From an uncultured Bacteroidales bacterium (GTDB taxonomy: Bacteria > Bacteroidota > Bacteroidia > Bacteroidales > UBA932): a stretch of DNA of 64,000 nucleotides. The notes under the pieces were generated by a model. The model saw only the letters and a program-made list of their open reading frames with translations, searched no databases and was not told the DNA's origin. A program made the translations under genes and the position numbers. The stretch is taken from assembly GCA_905234285.1 (NCBI GenBank), contig CAJOHK010000005.1:1-64000 (forward strand), given 5' to 3'. This document shows, piece after piece, positions 48,861 through 59,972 of the stretch; within the stretch, counting starts at the first letter, position 1, and every line of letters starts with the position of its first letter.

Positions 48861-51560
48861 TTAATTGAGTCTTTCGATGAGCAGGATCATGGACACGATG
48901 GAGGTGAGGGCGCTCAGGGAACCTGCGGCGATTCTATCCCACTCAATCTTTTCCTTAGGCTTCTCGCTCTTTTCTATCTTCTTTTGGTCCATGGACAGGG
49001 TAATGACACAGTCGGGCGTCACCTTAGGATAGAAACGCATCCACAGGAATTTGGAGGTGCTTTTGCTCTCGTTGTTGGGAGTGGTCACTGTCACGCTATT
49101 GCGGTCGGCAAACTTATGGAAGCCGCCGGCGCAGTGCTTGATGTACCATTTGGCACTGTGAGGTCCCTGGTAAACGATGGTTTTTTGTACCGACGAATAA
49201 TCTTCCGGCACGTACTGGGCCATGCGGGTGCCCATTTCGAAAATGGTCACGGTATTCTCCAGACGCGTCACATTGATAACGTCGCCGTCCATGAGGATGG
49301 GATCATAACGGGTGTTGCCGCTGTGGCGCCTGGCTTCCTTGAGGTTGATGCCGATGCTGCCGCGTCCTTTGAAGGTACGGAACAGGGTGCTGTTGGGGTT
49401 GGCATCGTCCAGCAGCCCGCCGGCCATCTTGATAATCTCGGACAGCTGCGTGCGGCCGTCTTCCAGGACATAAACGCCCGGATACTTCACGCGGCCATTC
49501 AGCTCTACGGTGCGGCCCTGGGTAAAGTTGGGCGTGAGGCGCACCACAATGTGGTCGTAGGGGTGCAGCTGGAAATCTCCGTTTACAGGATAGTAGTTCT
49601 CGTCTACCGCCAGCGTAATGGTGTCGAACTTTACCTCGTCCTTTTTGGATACAGACATGCGGAACACCTGTACGTTATCAAAGGAAGCGCCCAGTTCAAA
49701 GCCGCCGGCCATAGTAAGGAGGTCGTGAACGGTGAGCGAAGTGTCAAAGGCAGTTTTCACAGGGTTCTTGACGGCGCCGCTTACCCTGATTTCGCCGATA
49801 TTGGTGTAGGTGCTGTTGTCGTAGACGTTGAGGTCGTCACCGGGCTGCAGGAGCACATCGGATTCTTTCTCCAGATTAACGGCAATGTACTGCATCTTGT
49901 CCGGGTTGGTGATGTCCTTCCTGAAGATGTAGGCAACGGGGTATACGCTGGGCTTGAGGCCGCCGGCATACTCGATGGCCTGGCCTACGGTCATGCGGTC
50001 ATTCACGCCGAACTCGCGGGAGAAAGGCTTGCGGACCTGTCCGTTTACCGACAAGGTGGCCACGTCACTGTAACTGGCCAGTTCCAGGATGGTTACCAGG
50101 TCTTTGGCTTCCAGGGTGAAGTCCGGGTTGCCGCCAACGCCGGGGAAGGGAACGGTGAGCACCTCTACGGTCTGGTCCGGTTTGGTGCGCTCTACAAACA
50201 GATAGTCGGTGCGGGCGGTGTAGCGGGGTTTGGCAATGTCCAGCAGGTTCTTCAGGCTGCGGTTATTGGCCAGGTTGAAGCGGCCGCCGAAGTAAACATC
50301 GCCATCTACGTCTACGTATTCCTCTACGGGGACATGGGACCGTTTGATGCGCACGGAGTCGCCGGGAGCCAGGGGAACAATCTGGCCGCCTTCCAGGACA
50401 TTGTGCAGGTTATACTCCAGCAATTCCGGGAATCCATTCTTATAGCGCTGGATTTGCAGGTAATCTGTATAGGCGTCATCGGTGAGGCCGCCGGCATACT
50501 CGAGGAGGTCTTTGAGGTCTTCCCCGTCCAGGAGTTCATAGCTCATGGGGCGCCGTACGGCTCCCTGGATGGCAACTACCTTGGTGGCCATGGGAACAAA
50601 GATGACATCGTTGTTCTGGATGTCGTAGTAGGAACCGTCGGTGGGGTTCTTCATGTATTTGTACAGGTCCAGGGCGCGGGTTTTGCCGGCGCGGGAAAGC
50701 TGGATGTTACGCACTGAGCCCTTTTCTGTAGGGCCACCGGCGGCCGACAGGGCGTTGAAGGCCGTGTTGAGGGCGCTGATGGTAAAGCCGCCCTGTACGC
50801 CCACCTCACCGTAGATGTTTACAGTAAGGGTGCGGGCCGTGCTGATGGTGACGGCAATCTGGTCGGGTCTGAAGGAATAGTGCTGAGCCAACTTGGTGCG
50901 GATGGCCTGGCGTCCCTGGGCCAGGGTAAGGCCTTTGAGGAAAATCTTGGTGGCGCCGGTGGGCTGGATAGAGCCGTCCGGGCTGATGCGCTGATGAATC
51001 TCGGTTTGTGACGAGCCGAAGATGGAGATGTGCACTTCGTCGCCTTCGGCCAGGATGTAAGTGTCCGGGGCCTGGGCGCCGTCCGTGGTACGGAAGACAT
51101 CCAGCGACTTGCCGGTGAAGAAGGAGTGCCCGTAAATGTCGTTACCGGCAGTAGGGGATACATTATTCTGGGCCAGTGTTTTTTCCAGGGCCTGCTCTGC
51201 GGCAGATTCTCCCTCGGTGGTCTGGGCAAAGTCGGACGGTGTTACCGTGGGAGCTACAACGGGGGCGTCAAAATTTCCCTGGCCCACGGCGGTGCTGTCG
51301 GCACCCATCTTATTCTGGCCATTTTTCTCGGCCTGCATCTTATTGATGATGGTCATTACGCGTCCCTGGTAGTTGGCGTACTCGGACGGTGGAATAACGT
51401 CTACGTTAATGCCTTCCTGCATGAGTCGGGCGCGGACCTCGGTCTCGGTGAGGCCTCTCTTCTCCAATTCTGCGCGGGCCATGGACAGCATGGTGGCAGA
51501 CTGGGCGAAGGCCACAACGGAGAGGAGGCATAGTGCTAAAACAGTGAGAAACTTCTTCAT
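48861..51560 (-). CDS. SLBB-domain polysaccharide export (Wza-like) outer membrane protein
   Basis: ~899 aa; DTYILAEGDEVHISIFGSSQTEIHQRISPDGSIQPTGATKIFLKGLTLAQ, repeated SLBB motifs. Confidence 0.9.
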   Translation of the reverse strand: MKKFLTVLALCLLSVVAFAQSATMLSMARAELEKRGLTETEVRARLMQEGINVDVIPPSEYANYQGRVMTIINKMQAEKNGQNKMGADSTAVGQGNFDAPVVAPTVTPSDFAQTTEGESAAEQALEKTLAQNNVSPTAGNDIYGHSFFTGKSLDVFRTTDGAQAPDTYILAEGDEVHISIFGSSQTEIHQRISPDGSIQPTGATKIFLKGLTLAQGRQAIRTKLAQHYSFRPDQIAVTISTARTLTVNIYGEVGVQGGFTISALNTAFNALSAAGGPTEKGSVRNIQLSRAGKTRALDLYKYMKNPTDGSYYDIQNNDVIFVPMATKVVAIQGAVRRPMSYELLDGEDLKDLLEYAGGLTDDAYTDYLQIQRYKNGFPELLEYNLHNVLEGGQIVPLAPGDSVRIKRSHVPVEEYVDVDGDVYFGGRFNLANNRSLKNLLDIAKPRYTARTDYLFVERTKPDQTVEVLTVPFPGVGGNPDFTLEAKDLVTILELASYSDVATLSVNGQVRKPFSREFGVNDRMTVGQAIEYAGGLKPSVYPVAYIFRKDITNPDKMQYIAVNLEKESDVLLQPGDDLNVYDNSTYTNIGEIRVSGAVKNPVKTAFDTSLTVHDLLTMAGGFELGASFDNVQVFRMSVSKKDEVKFDTITLAVDENYYPVNGDFQLHPYDHIVVRLTPNFTQGRTVELNGRVKYPGVYVLEDGRTQLSEIIKMAGGLLDDANPNSTLFRTFKGRGSIGINLKEARRHSGNTRYDPILMDGDVINVTRLENTVTIFEMGTRMAQYVPEDYSSVQKTIVYQGPHSAKWYIKHCAGGFHKFADRNSVTVTTPNNESKSTSKFLWMRFYPKVTPDCVITLSMDQKKIEKSEKPKEKIEWDRIAAGSLSALTSIVSMILLIERLN

Positions 51561-51648
51561 ATCTGTTGGCAATTTTTAATGCGTATTTGGGAATTTAAGC
51601 CTACAAATTTACAATTTTTTCTCTATATTTGCGTGTTAAGCCAAACAA

Positions 51649-52713
51649 ATGTCTCAAATGATTCAGTTGGATGCCCACGCAGAGATGATTCTGGACGAAT
51701 ATCGGGAGCATGTGTCCCAATTTGCAGAGATGTCCGTCACAATCAAAAACCGACTCAATGAAATCCTTTCATCGGCCGGCATTGTGGTGGCGTCCGTAGA
51801 GAGTCGCGTCAAATCGGAATCTTCCCTGGCCGGCAAGCTGGAACTCAAGGGCGCCAAGTATAAGAGCCTGGCCGATATCACCGATATCGTGGGCCTTCGC
51901 GTCATCACGTTTTATCTGGACGACGTAGATAAGGTGGCCTCGGTGCTGGAACGCCATTTCCAGGTGGACTGGGAGAACTCCATCGACAAACGCAAAATCC
52001 ACGAGCTGGACAGCTTCGGCTATCTGTCGCTGCATTATGTGTGTTCTACGGATGACTTTCCCTACCGCTTCGAAATCCAGATGCGCACCCTGCTGCAGCA
52101 TGCCTGGGCCAACATGAACCACGATACAGGCTATAAGTCGGGCGTAGAGATTCCCCGTGAATATGTGCGCACCATGAACCGCCTGGCCGGCATGCTGGAA
52201 CTGGCCGACGATGAATTCAGCCGCATCCGGGCCAGCCTTACCGACTATCGGCGCCGCATGCAGGCGCTGGTGGCCTCCGGCAACCTGGACGATGTTCCGC
52301 TGGACGGCGATACCTTCCGCAGCTACCTCAACCTGGATCCCTTCGAGCTGCTCAACCGCCGTATCGCCTCGGTGAACCAGGCCGAGATTCACGAGGTGCC
52401 CCTCATGCCCTACCTGGCTGTATTCAAGGGGCTTGGCTGCAAGACCCTGGGCGATATCAACCGCCTCATCAAAGAATACTCCGATGCCGCCTACCAGATT
52501 GCCTGCTACCAAATCAGCCTCACCGATTTGGATATCATAGCCTCTTCGGTGGCTCCTCAGGACATCTGCATTGCCTACATTCTAAAAAGCGGTGGCGGCA
52601 AAGCCGGGATCCGCCGCCTCTTCGACGAGCTCAACGGCCCGTCCGAAGGCCACGAAATCATCGCTTCCATGCTTTTGGAGCAAGCCAAGGATCTTCCCTT
52701 CATGAACCAATAG
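51649..52713 (+). CDS. RelA/SpoT-domain (p)ppGpp synthetase, stand-alone
   Basis: KYKSLADITDIVGLRVITFYLDDVDKV...FGYLSLHYV...FEIQMRTLLQHAWANMNHDTGYK; no HD domain. Confidence 0.9.
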   Translation: MSQMIQLDAHAEMILDEYREHVSQFAEMSVTIKNRLNEILSSAGIVVASVESRVKSESSLAGKLELKGAKYKSLADITDIVGLRVITFYLDDVDKVASVLERHFQVDWENSIDKRKIHELDSFGYLSLHYVCSTDDFPYRFEIQMRTLLQHAWANMNHDTGYKSGVEIPREYVRTMNRLAGMLELADDEFSRIRASLTDYRRRMQALVASGNLDDVPLDGDTFRSYLNLDPFELLNRRIASVNQAEIHEVPLMPYLAVFKGLGCKTLGDINRLIKEYSDAAYQIACYQISLTDLDIIASSVAPQDICIAYILKSGGGKAGIRRLFDELNGPSEGHEIIASMLLEQAKDLPFMNQ

Positions 52714-52716
52714 ATT

Positions 52717-53292
52717 ATGCCCAATCAATCCCTGGATACCCAACTACTGGACCGCGCCATCATTTTTGCGGTAAAAGCCCACGCCGGCACGGAGCGCCGC
52801 GGAAAGGGTTTCCCCTACATAGTTCACCCCATGGAAGCCATGGAGATTGTAGCCACCATGACCCCGGACCAGGAACTGCTGGCCGCCGCCGCCCTCCACG
52901 ACACAGTAGAAGATACCGATGTTACGGTGGAGCAGCTAAGGGCCGAATTCGGTAACAGAATTGCCTCCCTGGTGGCAGATGAAAGCGACGAGATGCACGC
53001 CGGAATACCCGAGTCGGCCAGCTGGCATGCGCGCAAGCAGGCGGCCATCGACCGTCTGGCCAAAGCCTCCCGCGATGCCAAAATGGTGGCGCTGGGAGAC
53101 AAGCTTTCCAACATGCGGGCCATCGCTAGGGACTATGCCGTGCAGGGCGATGCCCTCTGGTCGCTCTTCCACGTAAAGGACCGCAAGGACCATGAGTGGC
53201 ATTACAGGGGCCTTGCCGATTCTCTCCGCGACTTGGAGGGAACGCCCGCTTTCCAGGAATTCGAATCATTGATCAATCAAGTCTTTGCCTGA
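52717..53292 (+). CDS. HD-domain protein, ppGpp hydrolase-like (MESH1/SpoT-HD type)
   Basis: RRGKGFPYIVHPMEAMEIVATM...AALHDTVEDTDVT...ALGDKLSNMRAI. Confidence 0.9.
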   Translation: MPNQSLDTQLLDRAIIFAVKAHAGTERRGKGFPYIVHPMEAMEIVATMTPDQELLAAAALHDTVEDTDVTVEQLRAEFGNRIASLVADESDEMHAGIPESASWHARKQAAIDRLAKASRDAKMVALGDKLSNMRAIARDYAVQGDALWSLFHVKDRKDHEWHYRGLADSLRDLEGTPAFQEFESLINQVFA

Positions 53293-54122
53293 TGGAGCCT
53301 GTTAAAATTTCCCTCAACGATTACGTACTTTCCGGTGGCGGTGCCAACGGAGAGAGTTTCGATCATAAAACAGATCCTTCCGTGATGCTTAAGCTCTACT
53401 TTCCCGGTAAAATCCAGCAGCCCCTGGACGAGATGTGCCTGGCAAGGAAAGTATATGAAATTGGCATCCCTACGCCAGAACCCGGCGAATATGTGGTTAC
53501 GGAGGAAGGTCGTTATGGCATCCGTTTCAAGCGTATCCTGGGCAAGAAATCCTTCTCCCGTGCCACGGCCGACGAGCCCGAGAAAGTGGCCGAATATGCA
53601 ACTGTCTTTGCGCAAATGTGCAAGAAACTGCATGCCACTCACGTGGATATCACTCAGTTCGAGAACGTGAAGGACCGCTACTACAGGCTCCTGACCCAGA
53701 ATCCCTTCTTTACGGCAGCCGAAAAGGACAAACTGGCCCGTTTTATAGCCGATACCCCGGACGAGGATACGGCCGTCCACGGGGATCTTCAGTACAGCAA
53801 CGCCATTTTTGTGGGAGACCAGCGCTATTTCATAGACCTGGGCGATTTCTGCTATGGTAATCATCTCTTCGATGTGGCTATGGTGTACCTTTGCTGCTAT
53901 TTGAGCGATGATATCTTTATCCGGGAGACTTTCCATATGCCCAAGTCGCTGGCCATGAAGTTTTGGGATCACTTTGCCCCCGAATACTTCGGCGCCGATA
54001 TCCCGCTCAAAGAGATTGAAGCCCTGGTCAAGCCTTATGCCGGTCTCAAGACCCTCATTATTGAACGGGACACCAACTGTCCCATGCCGGAATTCCGTGC
54101 AGCCTTATCCTCCATTTTATGA
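53292..54122 (+). CDS. TIGR02172-like aminoglycoside phosphotransferase/kinase-fold protein
   Basis: AVHGDLQYSNAIFV...YFIDLGDFCYGNHLFDVAM catalytic motifs; ATGA overlap with HD gene. Confidence 0.8.
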   Translation: MEPVKISLNDYVLSGGGANGESFDHKTDPSVMLKLYFPGKIQQPLDEMCLARKVYEIGIPTPEPGEYVVTEEGRYGIRFKRILGKKSFSRATADEPEKVAEYATVFAQMCKKLHATHVDITQFENVKDRYYRLLTQNPFFTAAEKDKLARFIADTPDEDTAVHGDLQYSNAIFVGDQRYFIDLGDFCYGNHLFDVAMVYLCCYLSDDIFIRETFHMPKSLAMKFWDHFAPEYFGADIPLKEIEALVKPYAGLKTLIIERDTNCPMPEFRAALSSIL

Positions 54123-56305
54123 AACAGGATTCAAAGCTCGCAAATAAACAGATGAGTCTGTCCATACGGGCGGGATTGCTTATCGTGGTGATGGCCGCCC
54201 TCTTTCTGGAAACCACCAATGTCCTGCAATACGTATTTGCCCGCAGGGTACTCAGAAATGAGGCCTCCCTCCGGGCTGAGGGAGAACTGGAAAAAGCCCA
54301 GATTCACATTCAGAGTATTGTCAATCAGGCCGAAGTCGCCGTCCACAACAGTATTTGGATAGCCCAGTGGTGCCTGACTCATAAAGACAGCCTGTATCGG
54401 GTACCGGAGCGTTTGGTGCGGGAGAACCCCATCATCGAGGGCTCTACGCTTGCCCTGGTCCCGTCCAGGGGAGGACTCATGGCTCCGTATGTGTTCCAGG
54501 AGGGGGGGGCCGGTGAAATCAAGCATCTTTCCCTGGCCACCGAAGCCTATGACTATCCCTCCAAGGAGTGGTTTACCAAACCCATAGAGTTGGGCGAGGG
54601 TTATTGGTCGGAGCCTTATCTGGACGTAGGGGGTGGAGATGTGGTCATGACTACGTATTCCATGCCGGTTAGGGATGCAGACGGGAATATCTGCGCCGTT
54701 CTTACGGCCGATATTTCCCTGGACTGGCTTTCCGGCCTGATGGGGAAGAATAGCGTCTATCCCCATGCTTTTAACCTGGTGGTGAGCCGTGGCGGCCAAA
54801 TAATGGTAAGCCCCATCCAGGATTTTATCATGCGAAAAACTACGGATGAGGTAGCTGCCTCATCCGGCGATTCGGCCAGTTTCATGCGGGTAAACCGGGC
54901 CCTGCGCTCGGGAGAATCAGGTGAGGTGAGCCTGAAGATTAACGGGAAGGGCAATATCGTTTATTACGCTCCCGTAGCAAAAACCGGTTGGGCCATGGCC
55001 GTAGTCCTTCCAGAGGATGAAGTGTACGCCGGAATCCACCGGGTGGGCATCTATGTCAAACTCATGCAAATACTGGCCATCATCCTCCTTGCGCTCATTC
55101 TCCGCTCTGCGGCCAAAAGCACCGCCGGATTCGAGGTCCTTAACAAGCAAAAAGAGCGCATGGAAGGAGAGTTGCACGTGGGCCACGAGATACAGATGTC
55201 CATGATTCCCAAGACTTTCCCTCCTTTCCCGGACCGGAAAGACCTGGATTTTGCCGCTTCCATCACGCCGGCCAAGGAGGTGGGCGGAGACCTTTACGAC
55301 TACTATCTCCGCGACGGGAAGCTCCTCTTTTGCATAGGGGATGTTTCCGGTAAAGGTGTGCCGGCGGCGCTGGTGATGGCCGTAACCCGAAGCCTCTTCC
55401 GGGCGGCATCGGCCCATGAATTCAGCCCGCAGCGCATAGTGACGTACATGAACGATTCCATGGCCGAGACCAACGAGAATGACATGTTTGTGACCTTCTT
55501 CTGCGGCACGCTGGACCTTACCACCGGGCATTTGAGATATTGCAATGCCGGCCATAATCCTCCGTTCATGCTCACCGATGCCATTCGCCCTTTGCAGGTA
55601 GATGCCAATATCCCGCTGGGCGTGATGTCCGGGTTCGCCTTTACGGAGCAGGAGGTAGACATGTATTACGACGATGCCCTGTTCCTGTTCACCGACGGCC
55701 TCACCGAAGCCGAGAATGCACAGGCCGAACAGTTTGGCCTGGAACGTACAGAGACCGTACTGCACGCCCGCCGTTCCTCCCAGGGCCATCTGGAGGCCCT
55801 CAAGTCGGCCGTAGATGAATTTGTGGGTGACGCGCCCCAGAGCGACGATCTTACCATGCTGTTTATCCATTATCTGGGGACGGCAGATCCCGAACAGTCG
55901 GAGCGGCATCTTCTCCTGCATAACGATATCCAGCAAATCCCCCAGCTGGCCGATTTCGTGGGAACCATCGCCCATGACATGAAACTCAGCCAGAGTTTGG
56001 CCATGGGCCTGAATCTGGCCTTGGAGGAGGCGGTAACCAACGTCATCCTCTATGCCTATCCCAAAGGCTCGGACGGCCTGGTGGACATAGAGGCCATCCT
56101 TCGGCAGAACTCCCTGGAGTTTATCATCAGCGACAGCGGCATTCCTTTCGACCCCACGGCGGCTCCGGAGGCCGATGTTACCCTTTCGGCCGAAGAACGT
56201 CCCATCGGCGGTCTGGGTATCTTCCTGGTGCGTCAGATAATGGATGAGGTCCATTATGAGCACAGGGACAATAAGAATTTCCTTTCCATGATTAAAAACA
56301 TATAG
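54119..56305 (+). CDS. Membrane sensor with SpoIIE/PP2C phosphatase plus C-terminal RsbW-like HATPase
   Basis: 728 aa; TM helix, Cache-like region, KEVGGDLYDYYLRDGKLLFCIGDVSGKGVPAALVMA, LNLALEEAVTNVILYAYP. Confidence 0.9.
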   Translation: MKQDSKLANKQMSLSIRAGLLIVVMAALFLETTNVLQYVFARRVLRNEASLRAEGELEKAQIHIQSIVNQAEVAVHNSIWIAQWCLTHKDSLYRVPERLVRENPIIEGSTLALVPSRGGLMAPYVFQEGGAGEIKHLSLATEAYDYPSKEWFTKPIELGEGYWSEPYLDVGGGDVVMTTYSMPVRDADGNICAVLTADISLDWLSGLMGKNSVYPHAFNLVVSRGGQIMVSPIQDFIMRKTTDEVAASSGDSASFMRVNRALRSGESGEVSLKINGKGNIVYYAPVAKTGWAMAVVLPEDEVYAGIHRVGIYVKLMQILAIILLALILRSAAKSTAGFEVLNKQKERMEGELHVGHEIQMSMIPKTFPPFPDRKDLDFAASITPAKEVGGDLYDYYLRDGKLLFCIGDVSGKGVPAALVMAVTRSLFRAASAHEFSPQRIVTYMNDSMAETNENDMFVTFFCGTLDLTTGHLRYCNAGHNPPFMLTDAIRPLQVDANIPLGVMSGFAFTEQEVDMYYDDALFLFTDGLTEAENAQAEQFGLERTETVLHARRSSQGHLEALKSAVDEFVGDAPQSDDLTMLFIHYLGTADPEQSERHLLLHNDIQQIPQLADFVGTIAHDMKLSQSLAMGLNLALEEAVTNVILYAYPKGSDGLVDIEAILRQNSLEFIISDSGIPFDPTAAPEADVTLSAEERPIGGLGIFLVRQIMDEVHYEHRDNKNFLSMIKNI

Positions 56306-56309
56306 AACC

Positions 56310-56615
56310 ATGAATATAGACATCGCAAAAGACAACGGCGTTGTGACGGCCCGCCTGGAAGGCCGTCTGGATACGGCTGCATCCATGGAGGTGGCCCCCA
56401 TTTTTGAATCGCTCAATCAGGAGGCCGATAAAACTGTCGTTTTAGATTGCAAGGCGCTCAGCTATATTTCCAGCTCGGGACTCCGTCTCTTCCTGGGCCT
56501 GCGCAAGGCTTCCACCGTCAAGGGAGGAAAGGTGATTGTGAGTGGTATGTCGGATGATATCCGTCAGGTGTTCATGATGACCGGTTTCCTGAATCTTTTC
56601 CAGATCGAGGACTAA
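56310..56615 (+). CDS. STAS-domain anti-sigma factor antagonist
   Basis: VVLDCKALSYISSSGLRLFLGLRKA signature. Confidence 0.94.
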   Translation: MNIDIAKDNGVVTARLEGRLDTAASMEVAPIFESLNQEADKTVVLDCKALSYISSSGLRLFLGLRKASTVKGGKVIVSGMSDDIRQVFMMTGFLNLFQIED

Positions 56616-58932: not shown

Positions 58933-59148
58933 TTATGCTGCCAGGTATTCTTGGTACAGAGCCACAGGACCATAATGCCACAGTTTGGTGCTTTCTTGCT
59001 CCAAGCGTTTGTAGGTGCTGGAGGCGTAGAACTTGGTCAAAGCATCGACAAGACTTAAATGCTCGTCTTCTGCTATAAAAGCGGCTACGGCAGCCACTTT
59101 GCCCGCAATAATCAAATAAAGATTTTGCTGGGTGATTTCGGCTCTCAT
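58933..59148 (-). CDS. DUF3791-like small protein (distal cassette member)
   Basis: 71 aa MRAEITQQNLYLIIAGKVAAVAAFIAEDEHLSLVDALTKFYASSTYKRLEQESTKLWHYG; ATGA overlap with preceding gene. Confidence 0.65.
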   Translation of the reverse strand: MRAEITQQNLYLIIAGKVAAVAAFIAEDEHLSLVDALTKFYASSTYKRLEQESTKLWHYGPVALYQEYLAA

Positions 59149-59627
59149 ACGCGCACCTCCTTCACTTGTGACAATGTCAATGTTTGCAGTGCTTTTTCTG
59201 TATGGAAAAGCATCTGGTCTATAAGCTTGTACGTTTTAAGTTCGGCAATCAGTTCTTGCTTGCTCAGAAGACCTTGTTCATAAAGCGCGAAAGCGGCATA
59301 AACGCGATCGTTGGCTACAGGTCCATAAACCAAATCGTGATTGTGCGTGAAGCCTCGTTGCGTACGGTTTGCATGCACAAAGTCCACCCAGTCTTCTCCG
59401 GGCGGGTTGTCAAATGAAAGCCTATCCAGGGCCAACGCTTTTTGCTCATCAAAAACATAGACGTTAATATACCCGATGTCTGAATTGGAAAGTTTCCTTA
59501 GAACCCATTCACGTGCTTGCTGCTCGGAAGTAGTAGTATAAAAACCGGAACCATAGTCCAACGTTCGGGTGGGAACCAAGATTCTTGGCTCTCTTACAAT
59601 TTGCAAACTTCCGTGAAAGAGTATCAT
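59145..59627 (-). CDS. DUF3990-like protein, ADP-ribosyltransferase-like putative toxin
   Basis: 160 aa; ILFHGS...LDYGSGFYTTTSEQQAREWVLRK...DLVYGPVANDRVYAAF...DQMLFHTEKALQTL. Confidence 0.82.
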   Translation of the reverse strand: MILFHGSLQIVREPRILVPTRTLDYGSGFYTTTSEQQAREWVLRKLSNSDIGYINVYVFDEQKALALDRLSFDNPPGEDWVDFVHANRTQRGFTHNHDLVYGPVANDRVYAAFALYEQGLLSKQELIAELKTYKLIDQMLFHTEKALQTLTLSQVKEVRV

Positions 59628-59830
59628 AAGCCCATCATTTCATCAATTTCTTCCAATAACCATGGCATACCCTGAGTGTGGAGTATATCGTAGTTTTTGA
59701 CAAGGTACTGCTTCACTCCAAATTTGTCAAACATTTCTGAAGCCTCTTCTCCGCGAATCCCATGCTTGTTCTTGAAGGATTCCATGCAGAAAGCAACAAA
59801 ATAGAGTATGTCTTGATCGTTCTGGCTCAT
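59624..59830 (-). CDS. DUF3791-like small protein (proximal cassette member)
   Basis: MSQNDQDILYFVAFCMESFKNKHGIRGEEASEMFDKFGVKQYLVKNYDILHTQGMPWLLEEIDEMMGL; ATGA overlap with DUF3990-like gene. Confidence 0.75.
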   Translation of the reverse strand: MSQNDQDILYFVAFCMESFKNKHGIRGEEASEMFDKFGVKQYLVKNYDILHTQGMPWLLEEIDEMMGL

Positions 59831-59972
59831 ACTGCAAAAATAAGCATTTTTGTCAATAACTGTGCAATTAGAAAATGTTAACCACAAGATTTAAACATTT
59901 GTGCAAAGCTAGCAAATATATGTATTCTTGTTGGATTATTCGCAAGTTGAATCTATTTCATCCCCAGACTAT

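Follow-up and report, generated by a model that had tools for sequence, protein, structure and literature searches.

A conserved five-gene cassette of uncultured Bacteroidales that may place an alarmone synthetase under partner-switching control

The subject of this work is a tightly packed group of five genes from an uncultured Bacteroidales bacterium (UBA932), in which enzymes of (p)ppGpp metabolism are encoded together with a partner-switching module. The group occupies positions 51,649 to 56,615 of the window, the whole 64,000-nucleotide (nt) stretch that was analysed (GenBank assembly GCA_905234285.1, contig CAJOHK010000005.1, positions 1 to 64,000). Open reading frame (ORF) calling on the window gave five plus-strand genes encoding a small alarmone synthetase (SAS), a small alarmone hydrolase (SAH), a kinase-fold protein (KIN), a membrane protein with sensor, phosphatase and kinase domains (PSW) and a STAS-domain protein (STAS), in that order. 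Gaps of 3 nt and 4 nt separate SAS from SAH and PSW from STAS, respectively, while SAH and KIN overlap by 1 nt (TGATG) and KIN and PSW by 4 nt (ATGA); the upstream neighbour (48861-51572) is divergent and lies 76 nt from SAS. In relatives the intergenic gaps have medians of -4 to +4 nt, and because the same genes recur with such short gaps in dozens of genomes, their grouping as an operon is far beyond chance. The spacing suggests that the five genes are transcribed as a single unit. Promoters of the Bacteroidetes type carry a -7 box with the consensus TAnnTTTG, and the element TATATTTG (51624..51631, plus strand), located 17 nt 5' of the first ATG, is by its resemblance to this consensus probably such a box; a sigma-70 promoter scan gave no signal above chance.

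SAS (51649..52713, plus strand) is a protein of 354 amino acids (aa) with a RelA_SpoT domain (Pfam, 1.1e-19) whose catalytic residues are intact, and it is devoid of HD, TGS and ACT domains. A sequence search of the PDB matched it to small GTP pyrophosphokinases of the RelQ/RelP type, including YjbM/SAS1 of Bacillus subtilis, and its AlphaFold model (predicted local distance difference test, pLDDT, 86) found B. subtilis SAS1 as the top Foldseek match, with CapRel also listed. Residues R53, K55, D79, Y125, H129, E142 and Q144 are at least 97% conserved among 66 relatives, the sample to which all residue conservation given here refers. The product of SAS is expected to be (p)ppGpp. In a comparison with PADLOC, the synthetase domain of SAS also hit PDC-S33 (9e-17), a candidate defence family, probably because of the shared RelA_SpoT domain.

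The C-terminal 144 aa of SAS (52279..52710, plus strand) form a helical, novel-looking domain with the motifs NQAE, Q..TD.DI and GGG..G. Modelled alone, this domain reached a pLDDT of 95 and a predicted template modelling score of 0.90, but its model matched no fold in the PDB (Foldseek, best E 0.94) and none of the viral structure models, and its sequence matched neither a Pfam family nor a PDB entry. It is absent from 395 other Bacteroidota genomes; within the genus of the source organism it is nearly as conserved as the catalytic domain. The more distant SAS relatives found in other families of Bacteroidota have a similar length but another C-terminal third, and they are orphan genes with no partner-switch genes alongside. 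The simplest reading is that the domain is regulatory and was gained together with the partner switch. The idea that it mimics a sigma factor or a STAS protein was rejected when Foldseek gave no match. No fusion of SAS with STAS or the HATPase, of the Rosetta-stone kind, was recognised among the relatives, and three long SAS frames (L085, L107 and L129) contain no second domain from the module.

SAH (52717..53292, plus strand, 191 aa; Pfam HD_4, 1.2e-20) matches MESH1 and the small HD hydrolases 4yf1, 7qoe and 7qoc in the PDB, and its H..HD..ED..N motif is intact, with H37, H61, D62, E65, D66 and N132 at least 97% conserved. A full-length Rel-type protein is encoded elsewhere in the source genome, and the cassette is therefore regarded as an accessory alarmone pathway. 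The only long Rel recovered there (L051:4631-6733, minus strand, contig C7) has intact synthetase motifs and a degenerate HD...ED motif (LHEASRMT). The congeners possess two classes of long Rel, separated by HD_4 score, and a second long Rel, whose HD domain is strong, is present in nearly all of 60 congeners, for which reason SAH was rejected as the genome's only hydrolase; the failure to see this second protein in the source genome is best attributed to an assembly that is 78% complete.

KIN (53292..54122, plus strand, 276 aa) has an APH-type kinase fold (Pfam APH, 6.9e-12) and scores 223.9 bits (2.3e-66) against TIGR02172; since this misses the curated cut-off of 228.2, it is filed as TIGR02172-like, a near member of the family. 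Its motifs HGD...N (at least 97% conserved) and D182-x-GD are nearly invariant. TIGR02172 was considered as a general Bacteroidota gene and rejected, since 296 other genomes of the phylum gave no match at E 1e-30. Two more TIGR02172 kinase-fold genes, adjacent to each other, lie at G000:C37:13804-15269 (L180).

The last two genes encode the parts of a partner switch. PSW (54119..56305, plus strand, 728 aa) is a membrane protein in which dCache_1 (1.4e-17), SpoIIE (a PP2C phosphatase domain; 3.6e-49) and HATPase_c_2 (4.9e-25) domains were recognised by Pfam, with PDB matches to the sensor 3lic, the phosphatase of Rv1364c (3ke6) and RsbW (6m36). The phosphatase aspartates D391, D408, D526 and D576/D577 are at least 97% conserved, as are the N-box (E637/N641), the G1 box (D672-x-G674) and the G2 box (GGLG) of the HATPase domain. 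STAS (56310..56615, plus strand, 101 aa; Pfam STAS, 9e-17) is of the antagonist type and scores 68.0 bits against TIGR00377, above the cut-off of 53.45. Its candidate phospho-serine is S55, within YISSSGLR; S54 and S55 are at least 97% conserved, and S54, S55 and G57 are also kept in a divergent class with YTSSQGLR. Of the traits of an RsbUVW-type system, the SpoIIE metal aspartates, the three boxes (N, G1, G2) of an RsbW-like HATPase and the conserved phospho-acceptor serine of STAS are present, whereas a sigma-factor target was not found. No GGDEF domain was matched by Pfam among the five operon proteins, no sigma-factor gene is adjacent to the operon or within the clusters of relatives, and no SigB/F/G match over the cut-off was found in the source genome, whose assembly is 78% complete.

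An earlier note on this DNA, made from the sequence alone, had proposed these gene identities and this layout, the splitting of (p)ppGpp synthesis and hydrolysis into adjacent genes, the joining of STAS kinase and phosphatase activities in one polypeptide and the lack of an adjacent sigma factor. The ORF calls, Pfam and NCBIfam agree with it: RelA_SpoT lies in SAS and HD_4 in SAH, PSW carries both SpoIIE and HATPase_c_2, and the operon encodes no sigma factor. Degenerate catalytic residues, which the note had named as a refutation, were not seen in the motifs of SAS and SAH, and the full-length Rel/SpoT that it had left to be looked for is the Rel-type protein described above.

Comparison among genomes established that the five genes are conserved as a unit within a single large genus of uncultured Bacteroidales from the rumen and gut. 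In a scan of genome contigs, the best 80 of 569 relatives all came from Bacteroidales metagenome-assembled genomes (MAGs), with titles suggesting rumen or gut. SAS occurred in 22 genomes of a first sample of 61 relatives, all of them congeneric, and in none of 24 genomes from other families of the same order. Conservation across Bacteroidales, which the earlier note had put forward for testing, was accordingly rejected in favour of restriction to the genus, although the genes are not scattered in relatives and the operon is kept within that genus. Among 121 congeners, SAS was found in 67, an RsbW-type HATPase in 79 and both in 66, the HATPase being present in 66 of 67 genomes with SAS and in 13 of 54 without it (Fisher p 1.2e-19, kinship uncorrected); the two lie at most 5 kb apart in 56 genomes. 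When only genomes at least 90% complete are counted, the HATPase is present in 31/31 with SAS and in 2/22 without it, and of the two genomes in the last count, G474 and G522, the former has no part of the module in the region concerned. These figures are to be read with the limits that MAG assemblies are incomplete and relatives are not independent.

Gene content was counted in 59 untruncated clusters anchored on SAS: PSW is present in 56, STAS in 55, KIN in 55 and SAH in 54, and 49 hold the complete five-gene set. This content is kept through rearrangement, with at least seven changes of gene order on the SAS tree and variants such as KIN-PSW-antiporter-STAS-SAS-SAH and SAS-PSW-antiporter-STAS-SAH-KIN. 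All parts are retained even where they are unlinked, as in G473, where SAS and the block SAH-KIN-PSW-STAS are on separate contigs, and in G470, where the same holds for PSW and the block SAS-SAH-STAS-KIN. In some loci the same SAS stands beside a different, split HATPase/SpoIIE/STAS module. The genes flanking the operon in the window had no match in any of 102 loci.

Several additional genes accompany the clusters of relatives. A K+/H+-antiporter-like gene (Na_H_Exchanger plus TrkA_C; e.g. L058:8172-9665) lies within or beside the cassette in 26/59 clusters, with 11 state changes on the SAS tree. A cytidylate-kinase-like (PF13189) gene is present in seven clusters, between SAS and SAH in some (L054:11063-11707, L046:8908-9564 and L092:11049-11696), and an NMT1/THI5-like substrate-binding protein in another count of seven of the 59, encoded just 5' of a PSW with a longer frame of about 780-790 aa (L065:4832-5791, L087:7545-8483 and L099:5331-6287); possibly the latter protein delivers a ligand to the PSW sensor. 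None of these three kinds of gene was recognised in the operon of the window.

Correlated evolution was assessed by a mirror-tree comparison, in which pairwise protein distances are correlated across loci. The distances of STAS correlated best with those of the catalytic part of SAS (r 0.66), against 0.51 for the HATPase, 0.42 for KIN and 0.20 for the sensor. In loci of canonical order, where SAS is the gene farthest from STAS, the STAS-SAS value was 0.61, compared with 0.46 for the HATPase, 0.44 for KIN and 0.31 for the sensor.

We propose, with about an even chance of being right, that the operon forms a partner-switching cassette and that the effector of this cassette is the alarmone synthetase which it encodes. 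SAS is assigned this role because no sigma gene lies in the clusters, because the source genome (78% complete) gave no SigB/F/G match over the cut-off and because STAS-type partners are known to control diguanylate cyclases; the proposal also draws on the retention of SAS with the module through rearrangement and unlinking, on the conserved, unmatched C-terminal domain and on the STAS-SAS correlation. An extracytoplasmic signal would be read by the dCache domain of PSW, whose state would set the balance between its SpoIIE phosphatase and its RsbW-like kinase; this balance would in turn determine the phosphorylation of STAS at Ser55, as family knowledge leads one to expect. STAS in one of its phospho-forms, or else the HATPase domain that it releases, would then bind SAS, most likely at the genus-specific C-terminal domain, and start or stop the synthesis of (p)ppGpp. 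SAH, encoded alongside, would reset the signal, and the TIGR02172-like KIN may be an accessory or second regulator. The narrower version, that one phospho-state of STAS binds the new SAS domain and so links a dCache sensor to (p)ppGpp by partner switching, is held a little more tentatively, at somewhat below even chances.

Several observations weigh against this proposal. The co-occurrence of SAS and the HATPase is partly due to inheritance of one operon. The STAS-SAS correlation is a modest signal from non-independent loci and only suggestive of co-evolution, the more so as the STAS-SAH (0.55) and STAS-SpoIIE (0.58) values in canonical loci are not clearly below 0.61. The C-terminus of SAS could instead serve for oligomerisation or as a binding site for RNA or a small molecule. 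Finally, PSW-STAS paralogues without SAS adjoin very large nonribosomal peptide synthetase (NRPS)-like genes of about 1960-2270 aa (L171, L174, L175, L176 and L177), and the module can therefore serve other outputs.

Those paralogues also lend weight to the view that the partner switch acts on an unlinked target, be it a sigma factor, an anti-sigma factor or another protein, and that the alarmone enzymes are stress genes that are co-expressed with the switch but do not touch it physically, all the more as sigma factors are the targets of classical partner switches. We judge this unlikely, at perhaps one chance in four, in view of the absence of SigB/F/G matches over the cut-off and of sigma genes in the clusters, of the fact that SAS anchors clusters whose content survives rearrangement and stays with the module even when unlinked, and of a C-terminal domain that is specific to the partner-switch context.

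SAS and SAH might alternatively work as toxin and antitoxin, or as a defence pair, in the manner of FaRel/ATfaRel, with the partner switch as its trigger or safety catch; their adjacency (median gap 3 nt), the neutralisation of FaRel by an adjacent SAH (PMC11782079) and the CapRel and PDC-S33 matches all fit such a pair. The nearest relatives of SAS in sequence and fold are however GTP-dependent synthetases of the RelQ/RelP type, 5/59 clusters have no adjacent SAH (in G019 the contig carries one at another place), a type II antitoxin-like gene is lacking, and PSW and STAS are conserved as well as SAH, which makes the pair improbable. Slightly more improbable still is a feedback loop upstream of another output, in which the alarmone or the GTP/ATP level is an input read by the HATPase or KIN. 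HATPase and kinase-fold proteins do use nucleotides and SAS, SAH and KIN adjoin in most clusters, but no alarmone-binding site was recognised in the operon's proteins, a single sensory domain is evident and KIN distances correlate least with those of the HATPase (r 0.16). For similar reasons the two-input stress integrator once suggested for this operon, to which such a loop comes closest, is unsupported, as one sensory input (dCache) is visible and the alarmone enzymes look more like the output.

Two features of the window lie downstream of the operon. Directly 3' of STAS, the segment 56629-56968 has a signal-peptide-like start, MRRLLAVALLCLGIFCQAQE, followed by a 103-aa ORF in another frame, and may represent a frameshifted small secreted protein. 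Farther on, a DUF3990 gene (59145-59887, minus strand; 1.4e-42) overlaps a small upstream ORF in an arrangement resembling a toxin-antitoxin pair.

An open question is by what path, apart from starved ribosomes and transcription of the genes for small synthetases, signals from outside the cell act on alarmone synthesis. The cassette, present in many uncultured Bacteroidales of the rumen and gut and including a synthetase with a conserved domain that has no known structural relative, suggests a hitherto unreported means by which an external signal could toggle the (p)ppGpp starvation alarm. It makes for a specific, testable proposal that partner switching, already familiar from sigma factors and c-di-GMP, extends to the control of (p)ppGpp; if true, this would be a route to the stringent response independent of the ribosome and of transcription. 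Searches of the open-licence literature turned up no account of an alarmone synthetase controlled by partner switching.

The cassette shares parts with several known systems. RelQ/SAS1 and the small HD hydrolases are stand-alone genes or are otherwise regulated. SAS and SAH resemble these enzymes (4yf1, 7qoe and 7qoc among the hydrolases) in catalytic domains and residues, unlike them being kept together as a pair and coupled to a partner switch. FaRel-ATfaRel likewise has a synthetase next to a small alarmone hydrolase (PMC11782079), whereas the SAS of the window is RelQ/RelP-like, has an unmatched C-terminal domain and sits inside a signalling cassette with no type II antitoxin. With RsbU/RsbW/RsbV of the sigma-B pathway and with Rv1364c, which is also a fusion, the operon has in common a SpoIIE phosphatase, an RsbW-like HATPase and a STAS phospho-serine, but alarmone enzymes stand in place of a sigma factor, none being adjacent or over the SigBFG cut-off. 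A precedent is offered by the STAS-type partners that bind and control the diguanylate cyclases HsbD, BgrR and SiaD (PMC8457831, PMC5085249). SiaABCD of Pseudomonas aeruginosa (PMC8457831) likewise joins a phosphatase, a HATPase kinase, a phosphoprotein and the synthetase of a second messenger in one operon. Its phosphoprotein activates the synthetase via a non-catalytic region, and STAS is proposed here to act on SAS, in either sense, by way of such a region; the system differs in that the kinase SiaB is separate, SiaC is a DUF1987 protein rather than a canonical STAS and SiaD is a diguanylate cyclase. In HsbR-HsbA-HsbD of the same species (PMC5085249), HsbR is both kinase and phosphatase towards a STAS protein, so the fused activities of PSW are not new in themselves, and the phospho-state of that STAS protein governs the binding and activation of a second-messenger synthetase, which for the present operon is again a proposal. 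HsbR is however a response regulator without dCache and its outputs are c-di-GMP (through HsbD) and FlgM, whereas the operon of the window has an alarmone synthetase, a hydrolase and an APH-fold protein and no GGDEF protein. HsbA binds HsbD when phosphorylated (PMC5085249) and phosphorylation of SiaC blocks its binding to SiaD (PMC8457831); the putative effect of STAS on SAS could be of either sign.

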